A stretch of DNA of 41,803 bases. Origin: a virus. Positions 566 to 16,256 of the stretch are shown here, in pieces; position 1 is the stretch's first letter, and each line of letters begins with the position of its first letter. A program made the position numbers and the translations under genes. The stretch lies in the IMG/VR virus record IMGVR_UViG_3300025655_000086, positions 1 through 41,803 of that record; one strand, given 5' to 3'. The notes beneath the pieces were generated by a model that saw nothing but the letters and a program-made list of their open reading frames with translations, was not told the DNA's origin and did not search any database.

Positions 566-2689
566 TCAAGTAATATTTCTAAGTTCCATTATCCCGTCTA
601 AATACAAACTAAATTTTATTTTATTTATATTAGGATCAACGATTCCACCTGATGAATCTTTCATATACATTTGAATTCTAGCAAGATAAGAAATATTAAG
701 AGGATTTTGAGCATGTCCTAAAGGAAAATAAAAAGAATCTATAGTCTTAAAGTCTCTTAAATCTGCAAACGCTTTCCTACCTCCGCATCCTACTTTTCTA
801 TAATCAACTTTGGGTACAGATTGTCCAAACTCTAGATATGTTAGTGTTGGATCGGCTGTTGCCATATAAATATCTACAGGACTAACAGAATTATTCTCAA
901 GTCCAGTATAGTCAACTTCTAATCTAAAAAAACCACCTCCATAATTTTTATAAGTAAGTAGACCGTAATCTAATTCATTTTGAATAGCGGCAAGATCCTC
1001 TGCGAATTTACTATTTACTGGATTAAAAGGAGCTTGAGTTCCTAATATAAAATAATTTATTGGTGAATTTTCTGTTCCTAATTCTGAATATGTTTTATTA
1101 GTGAATATCTTAAAAGGAGTTTCAAATGTTCTAGGAACTGCGGCAGTTGTAGCCCCTATACCGCCTCCTGTACCGCCTCCTGTACCCCCCTCTATTAATT
1201 CTGTTAAAGTTTGTATTTTAGTTTTTAAATCATCATTAATTCTTTTTAATTCATACTGCATCTCAGCTTTTCCAATAGCTGGGTTAGCTAAAGAAAGTTG
1301 AGGGAATGCGGCTGAAATGCCTGCTCTTTCATTATAAGTTAATTCAGCAGTTCTAAAGAAAGGTCTAATATCAACAACGTCTTCAGGAGCTACAGACAAA
1401 GAAGTATTTTGTACGAAAACATAAGCTACAGGAAGTATTGACTGACCTACTAACTCATATGCAGTACTTTCTAACTTTTCCGAAATTAAAGGAGCTATGT
1501 TAAGCAAATCATCTGGTGAGGGGAAAGATCCTCTCATATCATAAGCTATATCATTATCTGAAGTCGATGTAAATCCTAAATCCTCATTTAAAGCGTCTGC
1601 TGGATTTGCAAGTATTTTATGATTATCAGTAGTAAGTTGATAATTTTTTAATTCAATACCAGTCAAAGGCTTATCACTAATTTTAATACCAGCCCCACGA
1701 ACTATACCTAAAGTGGGAGCTGTTATAGTAGTTTTTCCTGATGGTTTTAAAATATTAACACTATCACTATCTATTGGAGAACTATAAATAAATACTAAAT
1801 CAATTCTACTTTGAACACCATCTACTGGAACTTCATTACCATTTTCATCTATGTAATTAAAATCATTAGAATCAAATGGTGGAACTTCAATAGAAAGTTC
1901 TGAATCAACATCCACTACAGCTAATCTTGAAACACCCCTCCAAGCTTTTATAAAATAAGATTCAACATTAGGTAGATCGACCATTCCAAGGTTAGCTGAA
2001 GAACCGTACTTTTCTAGTAAAAAACTAGAATAATTTTCGCTACTTTTTGCCCATAATAAGGCGTGACTAATTATTGGAACTGTAAAAAATGCTTGTGATC
2101 CTGGATCATTATCTGCACTATAGAAAAAACCTTGCGAATTATCGTCAACTAACAAGCCTGTACTATTTACAGGTGTTTGTGGGTCGTAAACAGGCCAAGT
2201 GAATGCTCTTTCTGCTAAACCTGTCATACCTGTAGAATTTCCTATAACATTTGTTTTAAATCTATTTAATGTTTGATTTAAAACAAAATTAGCATTATTT
2301 ATAAAATTACCACCAAATTCTAAAGGTGTGGCTGTCTTATAACTATCAACCTCACCAAGAACGTCACCAGTAAGTTTTTCTAAAAAAGCTAAAGGTAATT
2401 TTGTAGAAACATCATTAATTCTAGCAGTATATCTTCCTGGTTTAACCCTAACTTTTCTATCCCCACCAGAAGCGTAAGGTTTTAACTCAGAAAAATCAGA
2501 TCTACTAACATTAGAAATACCATCCCCAAGTGTTACTTTTTGAATTTGATCCTTCAGCCACAAACAATTTTCTTGAAGCTGCTTTAATGGAATGTTATCA
2601 ACTTCAAAATAGTAAGGATCATTAGCTTTAAAAAAGCGTATAGGGTCTGTAAACCTAAAACTACTATCTTTAAAAATTTTCTCTGCCAT
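566..2689 (-). CDS. Baseplate-associated structural protein with PYYFEVDNIPLKQL N-terminal motif
   Basis: This is a 707-residue protein. Near its N-terminus (residues 23-48) it has the string NDPYYFEVDNIPLKQLQE followed by LWLKDQI. The next protein encoded upstream has a comparable stretch (DNEPLYDLE...LWEK), so this is probably a shared docking segment for the baseplate. Residues 430-470 contain DIRPFFRTAELTYNERAG, typical in style of phage virion proteins. Residues 473-500 look like a short coiled coil, followed by a Gly/Thr-rich linker (about 501-512) and a C-terminal beta-rich domain. Its start overlaps the stop of the 1179-residue gene (TAATG), indicating coupled translation. Virion function is inferred from position and composition; the exact attachment point is unknown. 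Confidence 0.65.
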   Translation of the reverse strand: MAEKIFKDSSFRFTDPIRFFKANDPYYFEVDNIPLKQLQENCLWLKDQIQKVTLGDGISNVSRSDFSELKPYASGGDRKVRVKPGRYTARINDVSTKLPLAFLEKLTGDVLGEVDSYKTATPLEFGGNFINNANFVLNQTLNRFKTNVIGNSTGMTGLAERAFTWPVYDPQTPVNSTGLLVDDNSQGFFYSADNDPGSQAFFTVPIISHALLWAKSSENYSSFLLEKYGSSANLGMVDLPNVESYFIKAWRGVSRLAVVDVDSELSIEVPPFDSNDFNYIDENGNEVPVDGVQSRIDLVFIYSSPIDSDSVNILKPSGKTTITAPTLGIVRGAGIKISDKPLTGIELKNYQLTTDNHKILANPADALNEDLGFTSTSDNDIAYDMRGSFPSPDDLLNIAPLISEKLESTAYELVGQSILPVAYVFVQNTSLSVAPEDVVDIRPFFRTAELTYNERAGISAAFPQLSLANPAIGKAEMQYELKRINDDLKTKIQTLTELIEGGTGGGTGGGIGATTAAVPRTFETPFKIFTNKTYSELGTENSPINYFILGTQAPFNPVNSKFAEDLAAIQNELDYGLLTYKNYGGGFFRLEVDYTGLENNSVSPVDIYMATADPTLTYLEFGQSVPKVDYRKVGCGGRKAFADLRDFKTIDSFYFPLGHAQNPLNISYLARIQMYMKDSSGGIVDPNINKIKFSLYLDGIMELRNIT

Positions 2690-5600
2690 TAGTTATCTCT
2701 CTTTAAATCAAAAATACCTGCTGATTTGAATCCTAAACTTCCAGAAGTATCTCCAGGGAACGCTTCACTTCCTCTTACATTACTAAACCCTGCATTATAC
2801 ATTGTAACTTTTCTAGGTCTGCCGGAACTTCCTAAAGTTGCATTTCTAGAATTAGCAAAACAATAAGCTGCCGACTCGTCTAACATACATTGCGTCGGAT
2901 TATCGTCTAAAAACTCTGAACAGTAATAAAACCCAGAAGTCCATAAGGTGTCTGGGGTCCCGTCACCATCACTATCGTAACTTAGTTTTAACAATTCAGG
3001 ATAAATTGAACTTGCGTTTGTAGCACCAACAGCATTTACAGCAGATAACGGCGCTGAACAGTTGTAGCCTTGAGCAAAAATTTGATAAGCTGGTCCAAGA
3101 ACACCGCTAAAGTTCCCAGAATGGGGGTAAGCCCCCTCATAATAACCGCTTAAATCCGTCAAAAGTATTTTAGCTGCTGATTTAGGAGTCCAATAAATTC
3201 TAAAAGGACCTCTGTTTTCTGCTGTGCCTGGAATAGAACCATATAATTCTGTATTTATAGAATTATAGTTTAGACCAGCCTCTACTAATATATCAGCTGT
3301 TTCTGAATTTAATTCTCCACTTACAGGATAAAATCTATCAAAAGGATCGTTATACCCTACTCCCGAAGGAATAGTAAGTACAGAGCTACCAGCACCGAAA
3401 GAATCTAAAATACTTAGATTACCTGTATCAGGAGTATACTTAGGTGCTCCAGAAGCGATAACATTTACCGCTAATGAACCATCAATAGATGAATACCAAA
3501 AAGCATCAGGACCTTTATATTGAGTATTAAAAGGATGTTGACCACTTAAAGATAAGTAAGAAGCATTTAGTCTTGAAGTGTCTGCTATATTCCAAATTAA
3601 AAACTTATCACAATCAGAACCACTAGCATTGTAATAAAAACCATCTAAAGGAGAGGTGTTACTTGCTAATGGGAAATGCACGTTTGTAACATTGACAACA
3701 CTGTCTTGAACAGCTCTAACGCAAACACCACCTTGAGAATAAGTTTGTGCATCGGAATATGTATTTAATATATCAGTTCCATTAAGCAAAAATACGTTAA
3801 CATTTGGTTGTTCATCAAAAGTTTTTATAGTGGTTAGAGATACAGGCAAACTTGGAGAGTTTACTGCAACAGTAGGCTCTTGTGGGTTTGCGAAAAACTG
3901 AATTGACCCAGAACCTGTAAAACCACTAGTATAATATAGTTCTGCTTGTCCGTAATCTAAGCCACTAACTAAAACATCTAAACCTTCTGCTGTATTAGAC
4001 CAGTGTGTAGGTGCTGATCCGCAATCAAACATATTGATTATAGAATTTTTATTAGCCACCAAACACGCTCTTGTAGCATGTAGCTCTACAGATGTGTGAT
4101 TTCCCTGAGAACTAAGATCAAAACCACTAACATCTAATACATTAGAGGTCTCTTTTTTAGCAGGTTCAATATTTAATGTAGAATTATTTTCTACTAAAAT
4201 ATCGACACCAAACTGTCCTATAAATGTTGGCCCATGAATATTTATTTCTGAATTATCAGATCCATAAAGAGCACAGGATTTTTGTTGAGTATAATAACTA
4301 TCATCTCCAAAAACAAAAGTGCATCCATTTTTTGAACCAAATAAGGATGCTTTTGAATTATTTTTAACAAAAACACCCTTACCGTAACATGCTGTTTCGT
4401 TTAAAGAGTTAGTTGATTGCAAATCGCAATGAATTAAATCAATATTAGAATTATCAAAAACGGATATTGCAGGCAATGTTGCAAGTCCCGTTTCCCAATA
4501 TTCAGCCGCATGATCATCTAAGAATCTGGAGCTTCCGTATTTTTCTGGAGTGTGGTCACCCCTTTCAAAGGTAAACTCACTATTATTTTTTAAAAATATA
4601 TGTTGACCGTTTGCAGAAAAATCTAATTGACGTTTTGTTTGTTGAGATGCGACAGTCATACCGTTTTCAGATTTATATAAAAACAAAGAGTTATTAGATC
4701 GTATTCCTTCTTTTTTATTAGCATCAACAATTAAATTGTTAAATATTAGTGTTGAATTTCTAGATGTGATTCCCGTTTCACTACCATAAGAATCTAAACA
4801 TCCTGAAAAATCTAAATGTGAATTATTAAATACAAAATTAGATTTTGTATTTAATTCTCCAGCTAACAGAGCAGCTGAATCAAAACTTGTTATCGCTGAG
4901 GGACCGTAACCTCCGTAAATTTTAGAATTGTCTAATAAAAATCCTATTTCGTTTCTAGATGCTATAATTGAAAAATCTTGAGGAACAGCACTTAAATCAC
5001 CAACACCGTCAGTAATAGAATTAATGAATGTGGAACTTAATATAACTTCAGAATTAACTGCATGGAATCCAGGTGTCTGTCCTACTATTCGCGTAGTTGC
5101 ATCTGATTGTTCATAATTCCTGTATGCGAAAGCAGATCTTGATAATGTTACAGTAGAGTTTATGAACTTAAATCCAGCTTTCTTTGCATGAGCAGCGGAA
5201 CAATTTTCTAAAACAACGTCTGAATTGTTAATCTCTATACCTAAATTTTCTGTATTCTGTGGGTTTACAAAGAAATTTCTAATGTAAATTTTTCCACTAC
5301 AGTTCTTAACTCTTATTTTTTTTAATGAGTTTAGGTAAAAATTTCCTGTAATGTCAGTACTATTAGCTACAGCAAAGCTTCTAGCCAAATCATTTCCATT
5401 TGTTTGGTCAGTTGAACTAAAATCATAACTAAATGTTTGATCATCTAAACCAAACGTATAATCATAACCATTTAACTCTTCTGCTGTAGCTATCTTAAAA
5501 GAGTTTGCATTAGTAGCAGTAAATGGAGAATTTGCACCGTCAGCGTTTATTGCTACTGCTAATGGCGCTTTTCTTGTACTGTGGACTGGATATGCCACTA

Positions 5601-6228
5601 TAGTACCGCTATCAACCCTACTATCTAAACCTGCGGGATCTGAAGCTAAGGAGCTTAATACTCTAGTCTCTATAGCTAAACAAGATGTTTCTCCGAGAGT
5701 TGCGCTCAACTCACTTGAGGAAAAAGATCCAATAATATTGTGGCTTCCATTAGACCAAGAAGCAAAACCCCCATTCATAGTTTTTGTTATAGAACTAACA
5801 CTATGCGCTCTACCGAATCCTCTATTAATAATTTCTATAGAACCTTCTTCTTCTATGATAAAGTCATTTAGATCTATAATCTCATCTTCTCGGAAATTTG
5901 CATACTCAATTAATACAGGAAATCTAATTACTTTAGGTAAAGAGGCTAAACAAGAACTTAAATCCGTAAATATCGTTGAGTTTTGTTGTAGTGTTACGGT
6001 TGGGGTGTCCGCAGATACTGTTAAGGATAACCCAGGAACTGATGATGTTGGAAATCCCAATTTCTCCCAAAGAGCGTATGTTCTTTCTTCTAAATCATAC
6101 AAAGGTTCATTATCTTGTTCCCAATTATAAAAAGAACTAGTATCAAACTTGGAAACATTAGGAGTCCAAGAGTTGAAAAGCATTACACTCCCACTTCCAG
6201 TATAAATATCGTTTTTATTAAATGCCAT
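2689..6228 (-). CDS. Large tail-fibre/baseplate protein with predicted parallel beta-helix
   Basis: This is a 1179-residue protein. Residues 34-56 carry YNWEQDNEPLYDLEER followed by a hydrophobic LWEKLGF, resembling the anchoring motif of its neighbour. From roughly residue 290 to 800 there are many spaced repeats of the form N-N/D-S-x-hydrophobic-x-hydrophobic (for example NNSDVVLENC, NSTVTLSRS, NNSHLDFSGC, DNSNIDLIHC, NNSKASLFGS, NNSTLNIE). This is the signature of a right-handed parallel beta-helix of the pectate-lyase/tailspike type. The C-terminal third has many Tyr, Ser and Gly and looks like a separate beta-rich domain. The likely role is a virion fibre or a spike-like side protein. 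No catalytic site is obvious, so enzymatic activity is not claimed. It starts two bases after the stop of the 200-residue gene and has no clear Shine-Dalgarno site. Confidence 0.65.
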   Translation of the reverse strand: MAFNKNDIYTGSGSVMLFNSWTPNVSKFDTSSFYNWEQDNEPLYDLEERTYALWEKLGFPTSSVPGLSLTVSADTPTVTLQQNSTIFTDLSSCLASLPKVIRFPVLIEYANFREDEIIDLNDFIIEEEGSIEIINRGFGRAHSVSSITKTMNGGFASWSNGSHNIIGSFSSSELSATLGETSCLAIETRVLSSLASDPAGLDSRVDSGTIVAYPVHSTRKAPLAVAINADGANSPFTATNANSFKIATAEELNGYDYTFGLDDQTFSYDFSSTDQTNGNDLARSFAVANSTDITGNFYLNSLKKIRVKNCSGKIYIRNFFVNPQNTENLGIEINNSDVVLENCSAAHAKKAGFKFINSTVTLSRSAFAYRNYEQSDATTRIVGQTPGFHAVNSEVILSSTFINSITDGVGDLSAVPQDFSIIASRNEIGFLLDNSKIYGGYGPSAITSFDSAALLAGELNTKSNFVFNNSHLDFSGCLDSYGSETGITSRNSTLIFNNLIVDANKKEGIRSNNSLFLYKSENGMTVASQQTKRQLDFSANGQHIFLKNNSEFTFERGDHTPEKYGSSRFLDDHAAEYWETGLATLPAISVFDNSNIDLIHCDLQSTNSLNETACYGKGVFVKNNSKASLFGSKNGCTFVFGDDSYYTQQKSCALYGSDNSEINIHGPTFIGQFGVDILVENNSTLNIEPAKKETSNVLDVSGFDLSSQGNHTSVELHATRACLVANKNSIINMFDCGSAPTHWSNTAEGLDVLVSGLDYGQAELYYTSGFTGSGSIQFFANPQEPTVAVNSPSLPVSLTTIKTFDEQPNVNVFLLNGTDILNTYSDAQTYSQGGVCVRAVQDSVVNVTNVHFPLASNTSPLDGFYYNASGSDCDKFLIWNIADTSRLNASYLSLSGQHPFNTQYKGPDAFWYSSIDGSLAVNVIASGAPKYTPDTGNLSILDSFGAGSSVLTIPSGVGYNDPFDRFYPVSGELNSETADILVEAGLNYNSINTELYGSIPGTAENRGPFRIYWTPKSAAKILLTDLSGYYEGAYPHSGNFSGVLGPAYQIFAQGYNCSAPLSAVNAVGATNASSIYPELLKLSYDSDGDGTPDTLWTSGFYYCSEFLDDNPTQCMLDESAAYCFANSRNATLGSSGRPRKVTMYNAGFSNVRGSEAFPGDTSGSLGFKSAGIFDLKRDN

Positions 6229-6230
6229 TT

Positions 6231-6833
6231 CTAAAAATTAAGAGTCCATCTAAATATTAAACTGAAATCATCAGTTTTTCTTATATCTCCAAAAGTTCTA
6301 TAACAAACAAGAATAGGTCTATTTGTTGCGTATCCTGTTGGATTTTTCATCAACATGCCTATCTCATTTAAGTTTAAATCTTGTCCACTTCTAACTAAAT
6401 TGTTGCAAGCATCCTCATCTAAAACTAAAGTATACCTAACTGATGTTTTATCAATTTTAGTTATTTTATTTTTTGGTATTCTAGCAGCTATCGTAGTGCT
6501 TGTGGTTTCATTAGTTATTTGAGTTGCCTCTTCTATATATAGGTTAGAATTAATACCATACTCTGTTCCTGTTAATGCGCCAGAAAGCTCATAAATCGCG
6601 CTAGTCTCCCCTCCCTCTGGGGGTCCAGACACGCCGACTTGAAATCTATCTATTTGATAATCTAAAATACTATTAGATCCAGATCCAGTAAAAAGGTAAG
6701 ATAACCCAACACCCATACCAGACACGATAATATTATGATCATCGAAAATCTTTTCTGTTGATCCGTCTTTATATTTTTTATATATTTCTAAATGACCAGA
6801 TATATTTAATTTATTAGACATAGATTTTTTCAC
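6231..6833 (-). CDS. Small tail adhesin/adaptor made of the shared GHLEIY...RWTLNF module
   Basis: This protein has 200 residues from a GTG at 6833. That start is preferred because AAAGGTG lies 6 bases upstream, and because it places SGHL at residues 12-15, exactly where CGHL sits in the paralogue encoded just upstream. The whole protein matches the N-terminal domain of that paralogue: NIIVSGMGVGLSYLF versus NIIVSGTGLALANLF, IDRFQVGV in both, NEIGMLMKNP versus NEIGLFIKDP, and RKTDDFSLIFRWTLNF versus RKTNDFSLIFTWTINF. It is therefore a stand-alone copy of a virion module. The likely role is as an adaptor or adhesin near the baseplate. An alternative start is ATG at 6821. A longer reading from GTG at 6842 is less likely because that codon lies inside the putative ribosome-binding site. 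Confidence 0.65.
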   Translation of the reverse strand: MKKSMSNKLNISGHLEIYKKYKDGSTEKIFDDHNIIVSGMGVGLSYLFTGSGSNSILDYQIDRFQVGVSGPPEGGETSAIYELSGALTGTEYGINSNLYIEEATQITNETTSTTIAARIPKNKITKIDKTSVRYTLVLDEDACNNLVRSGQDLNLNEIGMLMKNPTGYATNRPILVCYRTFGDIRKTDDFSLIFRWTLNF

Positions 6834-6863
6834 GTTATTCACCTTTATATAATAGATAGTGCA

Positions 6864-9017
6864 TTAAGGACATTCTCTTACAACTCCATAGTTCAAGAAG
6901 ATAGAGCTAGGACAAGTAAGCTCCGGGTCATACGTTTCTCCTTTATACTTTTTAAACTCTTCATCGAAAGTATCCAAAGCCCATGTACCACTAGGACCTA
7001 TATTGTAAGCATTATATGTCGTCGGACCTTCTCCTGATACTGTAGGCCAATAACAATGACCTTCAGCAACATCATCCCAGGATAATGCATGGAATCCAAA
7101 GTCTAAAGGTTTTGATAAAGTGTTTTTAAAATAATCAGCGGCAGAAAAGGATGCTATAATTGTCTCAGGTTGTCTTGGTATCTCTCGGACAGTACCTGCC
7201 CCAAACTGTTTTGTAATGTCGTGGAAACCACAGGGAACAATTAATCCACCCATTCTTCCTGGGAAGGATCCATCGTTAACATCTGTAGCAAGTGTATTTA
7301 AAGCACTATCATTAGTTAAAAATTCATAATAGGCGGTTGGGTTTGTAAAGTCGTAACTACCGCCAAACTGTATTAGTTGGTCTTTATAATCTTCAGATGA
7401 TGGGAATCTTTGCACAGAATCATACGAACCTAAAACATTAATGTTTCCACCAGTTCTTACTGTATAAAAATCCTGATTAGTTGCAGCTCTCACATCGTTA
7501 AAAAACTGAGTTAAATCAGCATTTACATCATCCCAAGTTTCTCCTATCGCTGGAATTCTGAATGCTGTTCCATCTGGAGAACTACCAAAAAATCTTAAAA
7601 CAAGCCTTCCGTTGATTCTAAATGCTGCTGAAGAGTATTTTAATCTATTTATAACAAAAATAAACTCCTCTTTAACTAGTTCATCTATTTCTTCAGTTGT
7701 ATACAAACTTGTTGTTTGAGTATCTGTATATAAATTTACAGTCTCAAAATGTGGAAGTATACAATTAGTTAATCCATTATCTTCGCAGTATTGTACTTGA
7801 TTTAAAAAAGCGTGATATCTTATTTCAGGTATCGTTCGTATTTGGTCTGGTTCCGTTGAATAATAACTTGTCCATCTTAAATATTTAATTACAGGAGAAA
7901 TTGCGTCAAATCCGTAGTTTTTTCCAGATTTAGATTTTAATAATCTAGTGAATAGTTCAAATCTATCTATAGATTCTTGAGTCCTCATGCTGCAACTATA
8001 AATACCATTAGCAGGTCTTAAATATGACCAGACATTTCTAACTGAACAAGTATCAGTAGTACTCATCTGATCAAAATAATTTGAGCAAGTAGAAGGGTCT
8101 GCGTTTGTGAATGATGATGCATCTGTGTAGGGTGGGTTTGATCCAGTAACTTCTAGTGTGTCTGGATCTAAGTAGGGGTAGACTTCGGATTTATAGGTAG
8201 ATAACTTCCAACCGCCATATCCTTGGTCACTTCCAAGGGCAGAAGATGTTGCATCCACTAAAGGATCTCCACCACCACTAACCGATCCATTGATATTATC
8301 TGTTTCTGGTATACCCAACCAATTCATAAAAAGCATGGTGCTTATTGGCTGTGTTAATCTGTAGGATAAATCAAACGTGTGAGTACCATTAAATGTTCCT
8401 GTTAATTTAGGCTGCTCCACAGCTGTTATAAAGTTAATAGTCCATGTAAAAATTAAAGAAAAATCGTTCGTTTTTCTTACACCAGTAAAACTTCTATACG
8501 CGGCTAATACGCTGGAATTTTCGTTGTTTGGATCTTTAATAAATAATCCTATCTCATTTATAAATGCAGGTTTTTCATCTCTTGTAATCTTATTACATAA
8601 ATTATCTCCCAAAATTAATTTAAAAGTAACGCTTGTAGGGGAAGTTCTTTTAATTTGGGATTTTTTTATTTTTAAAAAATACTGATTTAATAATTTTTTT
8701 TCTTCTACTAATTGATCACTAACAATTTTATTTTCTGTAATACCATATTCGTCTAAAAGAGGATCAAATAATGATGTAGTAGAAGTATCAACTACTTTGT
8801 CAGAATCATAACCAACACCAACTTGAAATCTATCAATCTTAAAATTGTCAATAATTCCGTTTTCTTTAGAAGAGAATAAGTTAGCTAAAGCTAAACCAGT
8901 ACCAGAAACTATGATGTTATCTTCATCAAATACACATTCTTTTTTTCCATTTTTGAATTGTGTTTCAACTTTAAGATGCCCGCAAACGGTACTTACTTTA
9001 TCTTTTATTGTTTTCAT
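6864..9017 (-). CDS. Putative tailspike: shared adaptor module fused to GH71/GH99-like glycosidase domain
   Basis: This protein has 717 residues from ATG at 9017. That start overlaps the previous stop (ATGA) and has GGAGG about 11 bases upstream. An in-frame ATG 18 bases earlier would contain that ribosome-binding site and is rejected. Residues 12-196 form the module shared with the 200-residue neighbour (IDRFQVGVG, NEIGLFIKDP, RKTNDFSLIFTWTINF). Residues about 215-717 form a different domain. It has FRINGRLVLRFFG near 466, like the 'yfrinGkPvl..f' strand of GH99/GH71-type barrels. SWDDVAEGHCYWP at 646-658 resembles the family signature W-N/D-D/E-x-x-E-G/S-H/T-Y-x-x-P. This suggests a host polysaccharide-degrading or receptor-binding tailspike. 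The domain assignment rests on motif memory and needs a profile search. Many cysteines may form disulphides. Confidence 0.6.
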   Translation of the reverse strand: MKTIKDKVSTVCGHLKVETQFKNGKKECVFDEDNIIVSGTGLALANLFSSKENGIIDNFKIDRFQVGVGYDSDKVVDTSTTSLFDPLLDEYGITENKIVSDQLVEEKKLLNQYFLKIKKSQIKRTSPTSVTFKLILGDNLCNKITRDEKPAFINEIGLFIKDPNNENSSVLAAYRSFTGVRKTNDFSLIFTWTINFITAVEQPKLTGTFNGTHTFDLSYRLTQPISTMLFMNWLGIPETDNINGSVSGGGDPLVDATSSALGSDQGYGGWKLSTYKSEVYPYLDPDTLEVTGSNPPYTDASSFTNADPSTCSNYFDQMSTTDTCSVRNVWSYLRPANGIYSCSMRTQESIDRFELFTRLLKSKSGKNYGFDAISPVIKYLRWTSYYSTEPDQIRTIPEIRYHAFLNQVQYCEDNGLTNCILPHFETVNLYTDTQTTSLYTTEEIDELVKEEFIFVINRLKYSSAAFRINGRLVLRFFGSSPDGTAFRIPAIGETWDDVNADLTQFFNDVRAATNQDFYTVRTGGNINVLGSYDSVQRFPSSEDYKDQLIQFGGSYDFTNPTAYYEFLTNDSALNTLATDVNDGSFPGRMGGLIVPCGFHDITKQFGAGTVREIPRQPETIIASFSAADYFKNTLSKPLDFGFHALSWDDVAEGHCYWPTVSGEGPTTYNAYNIGPSGTWALDTFDEEFKKYKGETYDPELTCPSSIFLNYGVVRECP

Positions 9018-10153
9018 AATAAGTGTAACCTCCATTTAATAGTCAAAGGCACCCCTACCCCTAATGCTGTGTTTGTTGAATTGTTTTCTGTTATATTTTT
9101 AGTAAAATCTTTTCTACAAAATAATTTATATTTTCTAGGATTATTTAAAACATCAAAACTATATGGTGGTGTGTTTCCATTTAATAAAGATTTACTCATA
9201 TCAATTGACCATAAACCCATACTATAAACACCCCCATAATGATTTACTGTATGCATATCTCCTCTCGCAAAAGCTACAGAATATTCTATAATTCCGTTTG
9301 AAGAAAACTCGGAATTTGCCGACATAACTAAACCACTGGCAGGACTACTCATATCATAATTAGGTCCTGGAACTGAAGACATAACCATATTTACAAAACC
9401 AGAAATATCCATAGAACTTACTTCATTAAAATAACCGAAAACCTCACTACCATAATCACCAACAGAAAAACCAGTACTTTGAAAACCGCTAACATAAGTA
9501 TTATGAGGGCTACTGCTTCCGTCAGGAAACGCTCCAAGAAAACTAGCTATTTGTCCATCTAGATATCTTTTTAACAAATCAGTGGTGCCAAAAGAAGATA
9601 ATTCCGGGGTAGATAATCTAATAGAGGAAGCTATACTTTGTGGCATAAAATTTAAATGCTGCCCATTTCCTGGGAAAAAAGAACTAATATCATATTTACT
9701 CTGAAGAGAGTCGTCAAATTTACCGGAAACGCTAGTGTCTGTTTGTAATACGGTTAGTGCAGGATCTGGATAGTTAGGTAATCCAACTTTAGGATAGTAT
9801 GGAGGAGTTTGAGTGTAATCTTGATCATTAGCTACTCCAGGAACTACTAAACAATAGTTATTTACAGAATCTTTAGTTTCATTAAAATAAATAAGTGCAA
9901 GTTTTCCAAGTTTATCGTCAGAATAATTGTGACCATTGTTCAAGAATCCATCTTTTCCTGTACTAAAAGATATAGCTTGAATCATATAATTAGAAGCATC
10001 TAAAATAGAAGACGTTGCTTGATCTTCTATACTAGACAATGAAGGCGTTACTGTCATTATATCTGCTAACAGCTCGCCAGCACCGTCTGTAATTAAATTT
10101 GATTCTCTTAATATAAGATCATCGCCTTGCCAAATTTCTACTTCACCTCTCAT
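9014..10153 (-). CDS. Tail adhesin-like protein, extended relative of the shared adaptor module
   Basis: This is a 379-residue protein. Its N-terminus (GEVEIWQGDDLI, then NLITDGAGELLADIM) parallels the start of the adaptor modules encoded by the next two genes (GHLEIYKKYKDG, NIIVSGMGVGLSYL). ISFSTGKDGF occupies the place of IDRFQVGVG, and the C-terminus PLTIKWRLHLL parallels LIFRWTLNF. A large Ser/Gly/Tyr-rich insertion lies between these strands, at about residues 100-330. It is therefore probably a third member of the same family, made into a longer surface protein. It overlaps the 1483-residue gene by TAATG and the next gene by ATGA. The likely role is receptor binding or fibre attachment at the baseplate rim; this is inference from homology and position. 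Confidence 0.55.
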   Translation of the reverse strand: MRGEVEIWQGDDLILRESNLITDGAGELLADIMTVTPSLSSIEDQATSSILDASNYMIQAISFSTGKDGFLNNGHNYSDDKLGKLALIYFNETKDSVNNYCLVVPGVANDQDYTQTPPYYPKVGLPNYPDPALTVLQTDTSVSGKFDDSLQSKYDISSFFPGNGQHLNFMPQSIASSIRLSTPELSSFGTTDLLKRYLDGQIASFLGAFPDGSSSPHNTYVSGFQSTGFSVGDYGSEVFGYFNEVSSMDISGFVNMVMSSVPGPNYDMSSPASGLVMSANSEFSSNGIIEYSVAFARGDMHTVNHYGGVYSMGLWSIDMSKSLLNGNTPPYSFDVLNNPRKYKLFCRKDFTKNITENNSTNTALGVGVPLTIKWRLHLL

Positions 10154-13100
10154 TAGTTATCAAACTCCAAGCTACTGTAATTAGTAATTGTATATTTACC
10201 ATAAGAACCCCATTCAGGGTGTATTCTGTAGTTTAATCTAGAACCACCACTAAGCTCTAAACTTCCAGAAGTTATTGTTGCGTCTCTAGACGCTAAATCT
10301 GTTTGATAAACACCTGCACCTTGTCCAATTAAACCATTATAGAACTTTAAAATATCTCTTATTTGATATTTATCTAAGTATATTTTATCTTCTTTTACAT
10401 ATTTCCTAAAAGGAATTCCACTAGTTTGTAGTCCATGGTCAAATCCTAAAGATGCCTGTTCTCTTTGTGTTAAATCTGTTAAACCAACACTTTCTAATAG
10501 TAAATATTTTTTTGGATCATTATTAGGTATAAAGAAAATTTCAATAATATAATTAGTATCATCGGTGTGAACTAAATCGTTGATAATATATTCATTTTCT
10601 TTTATTGGTATAATATCAGTATATTCAAAATTATTATTTATTGTATAATTTCTAGTATCAAACTCAATTTCAAAATGTTCAAAATAACTATCTAAAATAT
10701 TATTTAATGAAGCATCATTTATTTCTTTTGTTGTAACTTGATTACTATCTACACAGCCTGGCTTATATTCATAATCCGAAGTAAAATTAGTAATAGGTTT
10801 TTTATTTTTAAATTTATATTTTAAGCATTTATCTTTAACAAAATCAATAGAAAGGTCGGATTCATAAGCATATTCCCACTTTTTATTAGGAGTCCATTGC
10901 CAAAACAAACCACTAACAGGTTGTGTGTGTATCCAAACACCCAAAGTACCTCCACCTAATTTTACTCCGTCCTCTTCTCCTACTAAAGCTTTTATATCTA
11001 ACTTAAATTTATGATCTTTTATAAGAAAATTTCTTCTTTCCCCATAAGAGGATAAATCAAACCTTAATCTAGGAAGCCCTCCTAAAGATTTACATTTTAC
11101 AACCGTATTTTCTATCAAAGGATTTTTAATACCGTTAACAGAAGCAGTAGCATCTAGTTTAAATATTCTAAATTGATTACTACTTGGTGCTCCAGAAATA
11201 TCACAAAACTCTACTCCTGAGATAATATTTGGATTTCTAAATTCGGCATTATAAGGATCCCCAGAAACAAAATTTCCTAAAAGAGGTACTACGGTATCAC
11301 CAGCATCACTAGCTATAAATGTTCCATTTCCTGATTCTGAAAAAGCATTTTGTGTGCTTATTCCACTTCCAGTAGAAAGATTATTAGAAATTAAAGATGC
11401 GTATTCTGTACCTCTGGTTTCAAAATTACCATTGTATACCCCTGATCCAAATATATGAGATATTATATTTCCACCACTTTCCTCTAAGTCGTTTAATGAT
11501 AGAGAATGTTTTTGAAAATAATTAGTATAGTCTTTATACATTTTGTGTACATCTCTTCCGAAAGAAAAATTGATGTAATCATCAAATGAATTTAAAACTA
11601 AACCACTAGCTATAGCTTCATTAGCAAAACTTTGAATAGTATTCTTCCAGTAACTATCTTTTGAGTACAGGTTAGAGTATTCAGTAACTGCTTTTATGTG
11701 TTCATTAGCCGCATCATACGCTTTTTTCTCAAACATTGTGTGAATTGTATGGTATATTGGGGGTAGTTCACCTCTGTCTACATATCTGTCTGTTGCAGAT
11801 GGGATATCGCTATTTTTCTCATTAGATCCTAAAGCCCTTAAACCTCTATATGGAAATGTATTACTAGTATCTACTCCAGAAAAAGTTTTATTAGAACTTA
11901 AATCTTCACAAATACCCCAAACTCCTGATGGGTTTATAGGATCTACCACTGGATAAAATTTTCCTGAAGAAGCGACGTAACCTAAAGTAAGCTCCCCTAA
12001 AGAAGATACATGTGAATTTTCTAAAGTTGAAGGGTCAAAAGAGGTGGGAGAATTAAAACCAGTTCTATCATAATAACCAGATCTTGGAAGTAAATATTTA
12101 TAATTTCTTCTTCTTGTGGCTCGCCTAGGAGCTGTTATTATTGATGTTGTAGAAGATAATAGTGAATCATTTATATCGTCCACATCCTCTCTAGAAAAAG
12201 TATTTAAGCCTCCCCTACCATCATTTGTTCCTGGAGATACAGAACCCATATTAACCCCACTAAGTTCAAAGTTTGATAATACAGATCCAGACGTATATCC
12301 TGCAAAAGTTTCTTGTTTATCAAAATTTAAGTAAGGAAATTCAGTGTCCTGAGAGGTGTATGTATCATACGAACTTGCTTCAACTTCTACTAAATTTATT
12401 GCATGTGCTGGTGTAAACTCATTTATAATCTGAGCTGCTTCATACAGAACATACTTTGAATCTCCCTCATATGTGGTTTTTCCAAAATCAAAATCTGTGC
12501 TAGAAAAAGCTAAATGTAAGTGAGATGATTTGCCATTCCAAAGATCTAAAATATTTTTTTGATAATTAGAAAATTTAGAAATTATACTATTAAAATTTGG
12601 AGGAGTTTGTGGTTTTTTAAAAAACATCAAAAAGTCGTTAAAATATGATAAAACAACTTCTGAATCTATAGCATTTTCAAATAAAAAGGTTTCTAATTGA
12701 TCACAAAAATCAGAATCTACAAGAAAACATCTTAGTCTTTTGATTAAAAATTTTATTAGATCTGGAGTTACTACACAGTTTTTATAGTATTTTTGTTCTT
12801 CAAAAGGAGGTAGTGGGTAGTTGTAGTATTTCCTGTAATTGAACAAAAATTCAATATCTCCCTCAAATTTTAGATAAAAACCTGAAGTTTTAACATTAGC
12901 AATATCCCCTAATAAAGTTAATCCTTGATCATCAGGAGTAATTTCTCCCGCTAGATAAACCCCCTCACCAAGAGGACCATAATAAGTAGCCTCTTCAAAA
13001 GCAGCTAATTCATTAAATGCAATAGCTTTCTTTTTTTGGATTTTATAGTCATTACTATTTTTAGGAATCATATAAAAAGGTTTCATTGCAGGATCATTCA

Positions 13101-14604
13101 AAATAGTGTATACCTGAATTTTTTTTCCGTTTGGAGTTAATCCGTAAAATCTAGGTACGGGAAACTCTTGACCTTTGTATATGAATAATTCTGGGAAAGC
13201 TCTATAAATATCTAATATTATTGAGTCTGTAACTATTTTTATATTATTTTCTAAACTAAGCTCATCGTATGTTGTAATTAAATTTTTTAAAGCTTCCTGG
13301 CTTGTCCAAGTTGTTAAATCTTTGAATAGTGGGGATTCGGTAGCTAACGAATACCAAATTAAGTAAGGTATATAAGATTCATAAAGTTCACTTACAGATC
13401 CCGTAACATCAAAAGAAGAATTAACAACCAAAGCGTTTATCGCCTGTTGAATTCCCGCTAAAGTTCCTGATTTTTTGTATAAATCTACAGCTAACCTTAG
13501 TTGATGCCTCCATTTATATGGAGAGTTTCCTCTTAACCTAAAACCTATTAATTCTGCTAAGTATTTTAAATACTCTTCAGGAGCGTTTTCGATATCGTAA
13601 AGTGTATTAATATTTAATACTTCATCATTTACATCAGCGAAATGATATCCTAGTATATTTAAAAATTTCCTATAAGGGCCTTTAGATTTTAAATCATCTA
13701 AAAGTAATCCAGTATTAATATAATCATCAAAAGCGTTTTTTACAAAAAAATCTTGTTCATCCATATAACTTGGAGAATAAATAATTTCATTCCAAGTTTT
13801 TAAACTTTCTAATTTTTGTATTCCGCTTGTGTATGTAGCAACAACCCCATCACTAGAATCTAATACGGCATCCTCTACCCCAGATACAAAATCTCCGGGT
13901 ATTAAAGATAGGTCTTTAAAGACAGAGCAGGTTTCATAGTTTCTCCAAATGTATTCAGTAAAACCATTAATTCCTTCTAAACTTTCTAAGGTTTTTCCTG
14001 TGTAAACATCTAAAAAAGATTGAAAAACATAGCTAGATGGTTCAAATAATAACCCACCATCTGCTGAAGTATTTAAAAAGTAAAACCAACCTAAAGCATC
14101 TATTAAATAATTATGAACACTACTAGCGTTTGAATTTTCTGTTAAGGCTGAGAGAGTTTGAATATTTTCCTCTAAAGAGCCGGGAGAGGTTTCACTTGCT
14201 GGTATTATTTTTGGTAATAATGTTCCAGATAAGTATGAACCGAATTCAGAACTTGTGTCAAAATTTGCTAAAGTAGTACCTAAAGGTAATAATATTTTAG
14301 TTTCTAATAAATAAGGATTAATTTTTGTAAGGCTGTTTTGTTTTACAAAATATTGAGATATCCCGCTTACAGAGTTTAAATTTTTTGTTTGAGAGTTTGG
14401 TATTGAGGATATAGATAAAACTTTAGAAATATTCCCTGCTGCAAGTAAGTGCGTATTTACTATCTTACTTATTGGATTAAGTTCAAAACCACTTAAACTA
14501 GAATCTTCATATTGATAAATATCAGGTGTTATTTTCTCTAACACATCAATATAATTAGATTTAAAGTAAGTATTTTTTTTTGATGTAAATTTATTTTGTC
14601 CCAT
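10153..14604 (-). CDS. Baseplate wedge protein with P2 gpI-like domain (gp7-type position)
   Basis: This is a 1483-residue protein. Residues about 337-392 carry the phage tail protein I pattern: IENAPEEYLKYLAELIGFRL, then WRHQLRLAVDLYKKSGT and an Ala/Gly helix. That pattern is a conserved Pro, an 'LA..lG' helix, an Arg-rich helix and a K-S/R-G-T turn. In contractile tails gpI partners with gpJ in the wedge triplex, and T4 gp7 and gp6 are the corresponding pair. The gene directly follows the gp6/J-type gene, which supports this. The rest of the protein is large and beta-rich and may hold fibre-docking domains. Start and stop overlap both neighbours (TGATG, TAATG). The gpI-like domain is fairly secure; naming the whole protein gp7 is less so. 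Confidence 0.7.
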   Translation of the reverse strand: MGQNKFTSKKNTYFKSNYIDVLEKITPDIYQYEDSSLSGFELNPISKIVNTHLLAAGNISKVLSISSIPNSQTKNLNSVSGISQYFVKQNSLTKINPYLLETKILLPLGTTLANFDTSSEFGSYLSGTLLPKIIPASETSPGSLEENIQTLSALTENSNASSVHNYLIDALGWFYFLNTSADGGLLFEPSSYVFQSFLDVYTGKTLESLEGINGFTEYIWRNYETCSVFKDLSLIPGDFVSGVEDAVLDSSDGVVATYTSGIQKLESLKTWNEIIYSPSYMDEQDFFVKNAFDDYINTGLLLDDLKSKGPYRKFLNILGYHFADVNDEVLNINTLYDIENAPEEYLKYLAELIGFRLRGNSPYKWRHQLRLAVDLYKKSGTLAGIQQAINALVVNSSFDVTGSVSELYESYIPYLIWYSLATESPLFKDLTTWTSQEALKNLITTYDELSLENNIKIVTDSIILDIYRAFPELFIYKGQEFPVPRFYGLTPNGKKIQVYTILNDPAMKPFYMIPKNSNDYKIQKKKAIAFNELAAFEEATYYGPLGEGVYLAGEITPDDQGLTLLGDIANVKTSGFYLKFEGDIEFLFNYRKYYNYPLPPFEEQKYYKNCVVTPDLIKFLIKRLRCFLVDSDFCDQLETFLFENAIDSEVVLSYFNDFLMFFKKPQTPPNFNSIISKFSNYQKNILDLWNGKSSHLHLAFSSTDFDFGKTTYEGDSKYVLYEAAQIINEFTPAHAINLVEVEASSYDTYTSQDTEFPYLNFDKQETFAGYTSGSVLSNFELSGVNMGSVSPGTNDGRGGLNTFSREDVDDINDSLLSSTTSIITAPRRATRRRNYKYLLPRSGYYDRTGFNSPTSFDPSTLENSHVSSLGELTLGYVASSGKFYPVVDPINPSGVWGICEDLSSNKTFSGVDTSNTFPYRGLRALGSNEKNSDIPSATDRYVDRGELPPIYHTIHTMFEKKAYDAANEHIKAVTEYSNLYSKDSYWKNTIQSFANEAIASGLVLNSFDDYINFSFGRDVHKMYKDYTNYFQKHSLSLNDLEESGGNIISHIFGSGVYNGNFETRGTEYASLISNNLSTGSGISTQNAFSESGNGTFIASDAGDTVVPLLGNFVSGDPYNAEFRNPNIISGVEFCDISGAPSSNQFRIFKLDATASVNGIKNPLIENTVVKCKSLGGLPRLRFDLSSYGERRNFLIKDHKFKLDIKALVGEEDGVKLGGGTLGVWIHTQPVSGLFWQWTPNKKWEYAYESDLSIDFVKDKCLKYKFKNKKPITNFTSDYEYKPGCVDSNQVTTKEINDASLNNILDSYFEHFEIEFDTRNYTINNNFEYTDIIPIKENEYIINDLVHTDDTNYIIEIFFIPNNDPKKYLLLESVGLTDLTQREQASLGFDHGLQTSGIPFRKYVKEDKIYLDKYQIRDILKFYNGLIGQGAGVYQTDLASRDATITSGSLELSGGSRLNYRIHPEWGSYGKYTITNYSSLEFDN

Positions 14605-16256
14605 CAGTCTAATAACTCTACAAGAATAACGATGTTATTTAATTGAATAATTTCATTAAAATCTACAGGAACATTCTGATCTAAGTTAGTTATACTAGAA
14701 AACCTAACTTCGTCTACTTCAAAAATTTCTCTGTTTAATTCAGATATATTTAATTCTTGACCAAAATCCCTATTATCAATGCTCATGTAGTTTAAAATTT
14801 TATCTCTAACCTTTATCTTAATTTGTTCTTGGTTTAGTTCTTCTATTTTATCAATTTTTATAGTGGTTATTAAATCTAAAGTTCTAATTAAACCATCAAC
14901 AAGAACCACTTCATCAGTAGCCATCTTCTTTTCATTAATAGCTGTCAATAGTTCAGTTTTAAAATTTGTCGTTGCTTTTTGTAATTGAATATCGGATGCT
15001 TTTTCCAGTATATAAATATCTATAGTATTTGCTGTAGCAAACGCTTTTCTTACTACCGCAGTTGCCTTACCTGCTGTTCCAAAATTACCAATAAAAGTAT
15101 TTGCAAAAGTTGTGTAATCTAATAAAGTAACCAAACGGTCTTGTCTTCTAAAAGTTAGTGGTGCATATTTTTTAGCGTGTTCTAAAGTCTCCGAATTCGA
15201 CCCACCAACACCTTTAGAGGTATTCGTTAATACTCCGGTAGCTGGGTAAGTAGGACCTAGAAGACTTCCATAAGCATCTGAGATATCCTGATTAATACTG
15301 TTTACTGAGATATTTCCTCTGGAGCCTCCCCCAACACGATATAAAACGGTATAACTAGCAGAATTAGAGGGACTTTCTCCTGTAACCCCATCTCCAAAAA
15401 CTATAGTTGCTTTATAAGAATCGTCGTAGATCACTTCAAAAACTTTATCTGTAGCTCCTGAAGCAAAATAAATATTATCTACTTCAGTATATGTACCTCC
15501 TGTATTAAGCTCTGAATCAGTTATAAACACTTGCACACTCTGTTCCGCTACAGGAAACTGTTGAAGTTCTATACTTTTTAAACCTTCTGTTGCGGCAAAA
15601 TCCCCAGACTCTTTTACTAAAGAACCTTCTTGAATAACAAGATTTTCAAAAATAGCTTTGTTTGTTCCCAAACCTTCTGTTTTTGGAATTAATTCTAAAT
15701 TTCCTTGGCTATTTGATAAAGGTTCTATCAACCCATCTATAACCTTATATAAAGTAAAATTTAAAGAACCGCCATCCTCAGCGGATATTGTTTCTATTAT
15801 TCTTGATTGTGCTGGAATTATAACTGTTTGTTCTGAAAATGGTGGGGATCCAGTGGGACCAAATGTACCTACATATCCAGGGTCATTATTAAAATCTAGT
15901 TTAGCTTGAGCAACTGAAGATATAGGCCCACGAAGTCTAACACCTATAAGTTCTAATAATTTTTTAACACTAGATCGTTGTCTTGCTGTAGCTAAAAAAT
16001 TCTCGTTCGCCAACATATCTGCTTTTAAAGAAACTACTGATCCTACATAGGCAGCTAATTCTAAAAACATCATTCCTAAATCTGATTCTACAAAATACTC
16101 ATATTCACCAGGATATACGGCTTTTGCATAATTGATAAGAGAGTTCCTAAAAGATAAGAAATCAGTTCCAGCAAAATTAATTAAATTTGGTTTTTTAAAA
16201 TCAGGAAACTTAACTAGTTTCATAAAATCTGATTCTACTCCTCCAGAAAAACTCAT
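14604..16256 (-). CDS. 6: Baseplate wedge subunit, gp6 / baseplate J family
   Basis: This is a 550-residue protein. Residues 45-110 contain the family hallmark: an SDLGMMFLELAAYVGSVV helix, then LANENFLATARQRSSV and LLELIGVRLRG. Later sections show the expected beta-rich middle (VFGDGVTGESPS near residue 290) and a C-terminal part with LVTLLDYTTFA and LDLITTIKI, typical of gp6/J proteins. In T4, two gp6 copies and one gp7 form each wedge core that carries the iris opening of the baseplate. It lies between the gp25-type and gpI/gp7-type genes, the same order as W-J-I in P2. Its start is four bases inside the end of the gp25 gene. At 550 residues it is somewhat shorter than T4 gp6. Confidence 0.88.
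   Translation of the reverse strand: MSFSGGVESDFMKLVKFPDFKKPNLINFAGTDFLSFRNSLINYAKAVYPGEYEYFVESDLGMMFLELAAYVGSVVSLKADMLANENFLATARQRSSVKKLLELIGVRLRGPISSVAQAKLDFNNDPGYVGTFGPTGSPPFSEQTVIIPAQSRIIETISAEDGGSLNFTLYKVIDGLIEPLSNSQGNLELIPKTEGLGTNKAIFENLVIQEGSLVKESGDFAATEGLKSIELQQFPVAEQSVQVFITDSELNTGGTYTEVDNIYFASGATDKVFEVIYDDSYKATIVFGDGVTGESPSNSASYTVLYRVGGGSRGNISVNSINQDISDAYGSLLGPTYPATGVLTNTSKGVGGSNSETLEHAKKYAPLTFRRQDRLVTLLDYTTFANTFIGNFGTAGKATAVVRKAFATANTIDIYILEKASDIQLQKATTNFKTELLTAINEKKMATDEVVLVDGLIRTLDLITTIKIDKIEELNQEQIKIKVRDKILNYMSIDNRDFGQELNISELNREIFEVDEVRFSSITNLDQNVPVDFNEIIQLNNIVILVELLD

Follow-up and report, generated by a model that had tools for sequence, protein, structure and literature searches.

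The window analysed here, a 41.8-kb uncultivated viral record, carries genes for a gp17-like terminase, a portal, a tape measure, and gp25-like and gp6-like wedge proteins. This gene set, together with a terminase that is 31–34% identical to those of T4-type and related phages, indicates a T4-like myovirus. The tail genes form a minus-strand run consisting of the gp6-like wedge, a 1483-aa Tail_P2_I protein and then genes encoding proteins of 379, 717, 203, 1179 and 707 aa. The features relevant to this study are as follows.

14604–16256, minus strand: gp6-like baseplate wedge protein (PHROG 219, E 1e-33)
10153–14604, minus strand: 1483-aa protein with a Tail_P2_I domain (Pfam PF09684, 21.5 bits against a cut-off of 20.6)
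9014–10153, minus strand: 379-aa tail-cluster protein (gp379), N-terminus weakly adaptor-like; relatives are size variants with domain insertions
6864–9017, minus strand: 717-aa adaptor–enzyme fusion, candidate tailspike (ORF; GGAGG site; 4-nt ATGA overlap)
8430–9017, minus strand: adaptor module, residues 1–196 of the fusion (36–38% identity to the gene at 6231–6842; PHROG 5417, E 1.3e-4)
6864–8411, minus strand: GH71/GH99-like putative catalytic domain, residues 203–717 (homologue L104; structural matches of model residues 135–420)
7584–7622, minus strand: FRINGRLVLRFFG strand, residues 466–478 (aligned with FKVDGRPVLLWYR of L104 and HYFRNGKLVLSPYY of the GH71 protein L117)
7044–7082, minus strand: SWDDVAEGHCYWP, residues 646–658, with the putative dyad D649/E652 (W, D, A, E, G and P unchanged across the five sequences of alignment A6)
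6231–6842, minus strand: standalone adaptor, 203 aa (family seen in 48 of the 50 viral records covered; PHROG 5417)
2689–6228, minus strand: 1179-aa conserved cluster gene (gp1179), following the adaptor (synteny)

The 717-aa reading frame opens with an ATG at position 9017, which is preceded by a GGAGG ribosome-binding site, and the gene overlaps the stop of the upstream gene by 4 nt (ATGA). An alternative ATG at 9035, for a 723-aa product, overlaps this GGAGG site. Recent acquisition of the C-terminal payload is not evident from base composition (GC 0.36, compared with 0.28–0.36 in the other genes compared).

The original prediction described an enzyme fused to an adaptor module that also exists alone in the next gene. 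Indeed, residues 1–196 of the fusion match the product of the gene at 6231–6842 with an E-value of 1.1e-36 and 36–38% identity. The adaptor belongs to PHROG 5417, a family without an assigned function, and all 17 of the 17 sampled adaptor members, the fused copy included, match the PHROG profile at E ≤ 0.01. A search with an alignment of three copies located the adaptor at approximately 80 viral loci, nearly all of which keep the order wedge, Tail_P2_I protein, gp379, adaptor, gp1179. Among the 50 whole viral records searched, 48 contain the adaptor. A single copy is present in 45 of these 48 (in one case broken across frames) and two copies in the remaining three, both standalone in two of the records and one fused plus one standalone in L022. 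Moreover, the cultured Pseudomonas phage vB_PpuM-Aura encodes a distant homologue in the same place (Aura_00120, 25% identical to a consensus), closely preceded by one hypothetical gene and two genes for baseplate wedge proteins and directly followed by a 1346-aa tail fiber gene. Unlike the window protein, Aura_00120 is standalone, is annotated as hypothetical and has no fused enzyme. This placement supports the predicted role of the adaptor as a baseplate or fibre connector, and the adaptor half of the interpretation appears well supported by comparative genomics.

The N-terminus of the window gp379 (9014–10153, minus strand) resembles that of the adaptor (hhalign local E 4.9e-4, probability 32%), and given this likeness a relationship between the two attachment modules is possible. 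At one further locus (L086:5962–6580, plus strand) the adaptor and several adjoining tail genes are fragmented across many frames, in a way that resembles the effect of sequencing errors or decay.

An extra adaptor copy is present in the window, L022, L011, L012 and L017, each time with the gp379 homologue on one side and the standalone adaptor on the other. In the window and L022 this copy is fused to a C-terminal payload, and the two payloads, although they share the slot, are unrelated; at L011/L012:5324–5944 and L017:5325–5945 (plus strand) the slot that holds fusions elsewhere contains an extra copy with no payload. The L022 gene (3175–5943, plus strand) joins the adaptor to a payload of ∼720 aa that is dissimilar to that of the window and weakly alpha/beta-hydrolase-like (E 0.008), and which displays GFGVGG where a solved alpha/beta hydrolase has GFSMGG, so that its nucleophile is possibly missing. 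L003, which is 55% identical in the 1483-aa protein, is without any fusion. The presence of two distinct payloads in one slot, together with payload-free extra copies, lends comparative support to the earlier suggestion of a plug-in arrangement with an exchangeable catalytic part. In the adaptor tree the fused window copy forms a very long branch (2.75), apart from L022, L011 and L017, and the tree gives no clear support for one origin of the extra copies or for several.

Several gp379 homologues (L019:2555–5995, L021:2465–5986, L023:2558–5995, L003:13408–15420, L043 and L067) contain large inserted domains, bringing them to 632–1173 aa as against ∼320–400 aa. Some of these inserts recall carbohydrate-binding modules, and they represent a second payload site beside the adaptor. 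Another gp379 homologue (L078:4036–5976, plus strand) has Kelch-repeat (beta-propeller) domains (Pfam E 2.4e-35). In L038:2859–4886 and L039:2787–4871 (plus strand) an extra gene encoding 675–694 aa lies between the Tail_P2_I protein and gp379; it gave no Pfam or PDB match, and the L038 product contains EWSNETWN, recalling glycoside hydrolases.

The C-terminal domain of the fusion was originally proposed to be a GH71/GH99-like glycosidase on the basis of two motifs, and both lie where they had been placed in the 717-aa ORF, FRINGRLVLRFFG at residues 466–478 and SWDDVAEGHCYWP at residues 646–658. Database profile searches with the protein or the catalytic domain returned no Pfam match and no convincing PDB sequence match. 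The GH71 profile (Pfam PF03659) did not match the protein at E ≤ 1 or E ≤ 10, no WbsX (PF14307) profile match was seen in the window, and searches of viral contigs, phage records, plasmids and GTDB genomes turned up no close relatives of the protein or the domain. The one homologue found for the catalytic domain, and only by a motif-based DNA scan (W[ND]DxAEGxxxxP), is L104, which stands alone as a 448-aa gene on a different phage contig. L104 aligns across its length, C-terminal TCP motif included, with 29% identity and 74 bits, the top score among 2000 shuffles being 10 bits. In Pfam, L104 matches GH71 best (E 0.0029; 16.9 bits, below the cut-off of 34), and this match spans both of the motif regions.

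The DNA scan also yielded the viral proteins L117, L124 and L120, all of which score above the GH71 cut-off and contain WND[YV]AEG. An HMM of these three sequences recovered Schizosaccharomyces pombe Agn1p from the PDB (E 0.0014), with TWNDYAEG opposite TWNDYGES; the 717-aa protein was absent from the best matches of this HMM and L104 was marginal. In a profile–profile comparison of alignment A2 with the viral GH71 alignment A4, the 20-residue motif alone was aligned, with a probability of 11.5%. L117 and L124 likewise lie in phage contigs and carry a GH71 domain, but they are above the GH71 cut-off, show no PHROG 5417 adaptor and have only a distantly related domain. L124 (8444–12195, plus strand) adjoins a gene with PHROG matches to tail fiber, tail spike and hyaluronidase families, and its contig also has a PHROG 4291 polymerase gene. 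Most matches of the scan were GFSIKPKWW... proteins, which were discarded as having the motif in common without homology, and an 11-residue match in L010 was taken as chance.

Residues D649-V-A-E652 are in register with L104, L117, L124 and L112 and correspond to the D-x-x-E dyad of GH71, located within W[ND]DxxE. The W, D, A, E, G and P residues of this motif do not vary, although the aligned sequences are otherwise 17–29% identical to the query. The same dyad occurs in the GH71 alpha-1,3-glucanases S. pombe Agn1p (8yfh/9m6l) and Aspergillus nidulans AnGH71C (9fng) in a TWNDYGE-like motif; the Agn1p motif is TWNDYGES, and the entry for the Agn1p D237N mutant has TWNNYGES, with the same Asp changed. 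The conserved carboxylates, for which mapping to the active site had been named as a check, align with both acids of the GH71 dyad. Mutation of either residue of the AnGH71C dyad, D265/E268, lowers activity 6,000–15,000-fold, and an inverting mechanism in which Asp is the base and Glu the acid has been proposed for GH71 (PMC12394665). An Asp as the first acid of the dyad occurs almost only in GH71, and a Glu almost only in GH99 (PMC12394665), the GH99 dyad being ExxE (EWHE/EWGE; PMC11025385, PMC12394665). The GH99 endo-alpha-mannosidases and mannanases have the predicted barrel superfamily and the dyad position in common with the window protein, but differ in the first acid, which is Glu in EWHE and Asp649 here. 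The presence of D649 and E652 makes GH71-type chemistry a better prediction than GH99. Of the two families named in the original prediction, the dyad Asp points to GH71 and argues against GH99 chemistry.

When the query, adaptors and GH71 proteins were aligned over their full length, the domains did not come into register, and the catalytic domain alone was therefore modelled. AlphaFold2 gave a mean pLDDT of 33.7 from a two-sequence alignment without GH71 sequences (first model) and 37.9, with a core of 55–85, from a five-sequence alignment (second model); the second model is not independent because its alignment includes GH71 proteins. With the first model, Foldseek placed AnGH71C at rank 1 with a non-significant E-value of 0.12 and Agn1p at rank 3 (E 0.21); with the second, the glycoside hydrolase-like 5ngw was at rank 1 (E 0.012) and Agn1p at rank 2 (E 0.029). 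In VIA-align, Agn1p was at rank 2 with the first model (Z 7.9, tied with a GH5 mannanase at 8.2) and at rank 1 with the second (Z 9.6). A BFVD search returned nothing useful. The structural matches start near residue 337 and cover about 135–145 residues, which is the first half of a barrel. In the half that contains the dyad pLDDT drops below 50, and no Foldseek match, all being at E 0.01 or worse, covers it confidently. The low-confidence models (mean pLDDT 34–38), with GH71 and GH99 among their top matches, thus resemble the expected TIM barrel over roughly half its extent and resolve no acidic pocket at the dyad, which falls short of a decisive outcome for the structural check that accompanied the original prediction.

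Taken together, the one homologue, its sub-threshold Pfam match, the motif and the low-confidence, mutually agreeing models support placing the domain, which carries a GH71-type dyad, at the level of the GH71/GH99 superfamily and not within GH71 itself: L104 reaches 16.9 bits, as against the curated PF03659 cut-off of 34. The glycosidase assignment stands at this superfamily level, through L104 and its GH71 match, the dyad and the two models, and a direct GH71 profile match was not obtained. Although GH71 is the best Pfam family of L104 and Agn1p and AnGH71C are among the best structural matches, the window domain differs from the GH71 glucanases in falling below the curated cut-off and in being fused to a phage tail adaptor. 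In addition, with 65 residues after E652, it has no room for the C-terminal beta-sandwich of the fungal enzymes.

A GH99/WbsX-type enzyme would share the barrel but would act on a substrate of the alpha-mannan type, with retention by way of a 1,2-anhydro sugar as in GH99. GH99 barrels are indeed among the structural matches (Z 5–7), and AEGxxxxP is reminiscent of WbsX, to which L104 also has a weak match (E 0.21). This identity is nevertheless rather unlikely, given an Asp first acid almost exclusive to GH71 (PMC12394665), GH71 scores that exceed WbsX for L104, L117 and L124, and GH71 Z-scores above those of GH99 in both models, the best GH99 chain of the first model lying within 1 Z. It is likewise unlikely that the barrel is degenerate or non-catalytic and serves only to bind host glycan. 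Tail proteins can retain enzyme folds as binding modules, and the GFGVGG of the L022 payload, in place of GFSMGG, could reflect such a case; however, the six motif residues of the window domain are invariant despite the low overall identity to the query.

Least probable, and decidedly so, is a different fold or another barrel family, such as a GH5-like one, in which the GH71 motif has arisen by chance. The low confidence of the models leaves room for this, and GH5 mannanases are at rank 1 in the first model and, at Z 8.0–8.7, tied with AnGH71C in the second. Against chance, W[ND][DE]xxE[GS]xxxxP arises in only 11 of 200,000 shuffles of the 717-aa protein, and L104 has GH71 as its best Pfam match with the motif in register. 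Among ∼400,000 ORF residues, copies of the 717-aa gene aside, the motif is absent from other ORFs.

The preferred reading, with a probability of roughly two in three, is that the 717-aa protein is a virion-associated, adaptor-docked GH71/GH99-superfamily hydrolase that carries a GH71-type dyad and would cleave a host glycan by inversion, and that the second adaptor accepts exchangeable payloads. The N-terminal duplicated tail adaptor would dock the protein on the baseplate, and the C-terminal domain would form a (beta/alpha)8 barrel in which D649 would act as the general base activating water and E652 as the general acid. The enzyme would cut an alpha-linked glycan in the capsule, EPS or O-antigen of the host and so expose the receptor. 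Known GH71 enzymes cut alpha-1,3-glucan, and the glycan that a phage would most probably encounter is an alpha-linked capsule or EPS. The architecture and the tail-cluster position fit a virion-associated tailspike depolymerase, most likely a virion-borne, inverting GH71-type glycanase acting on host surface glycan. The standalone adaptor would keep its ancestral role, and the second copy would be the site at which payloads are exchanged.

A common N-terminal attachment module with a variable C-terminal enzyme is likewise found in modular tailspikes and depolymerases, such as the Ackermannviridae TSPs and the Klebsiella depolymerases, although their enzymes are mostly beta-helices and the window adaptor is from a different family (PHROG 5417). 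In the DepoScope survey TIM barrels account for 10 of 984 fold hits (PMC11326577). Phage tails rarely carry a payload of the GH71/GH99 barrel type; no report of GH71 in a phage tail was found in a literature search, and bacterial GH71 enzymes are uncharacterised as of the 2025–2026 literature. The chances appear even that T4-like phages use a distinct GH71-related enzyme family as a virion tailspike and that the duplicated adaptor is a dedicated cargo slot for unrelated domains (GH71-like, hydrolase-like as in L022, or none), leaving the ancestral adaptor untouched. Annotation tools are trained on beta-helices and propellers, the folds of most phage depolymerases recognised so far, and would overlook a tail adaptor that carries a GH71-type barrel. 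The adaptor family would provide a sequence handle for other unusual payloads in uncultivated T4-like phages.
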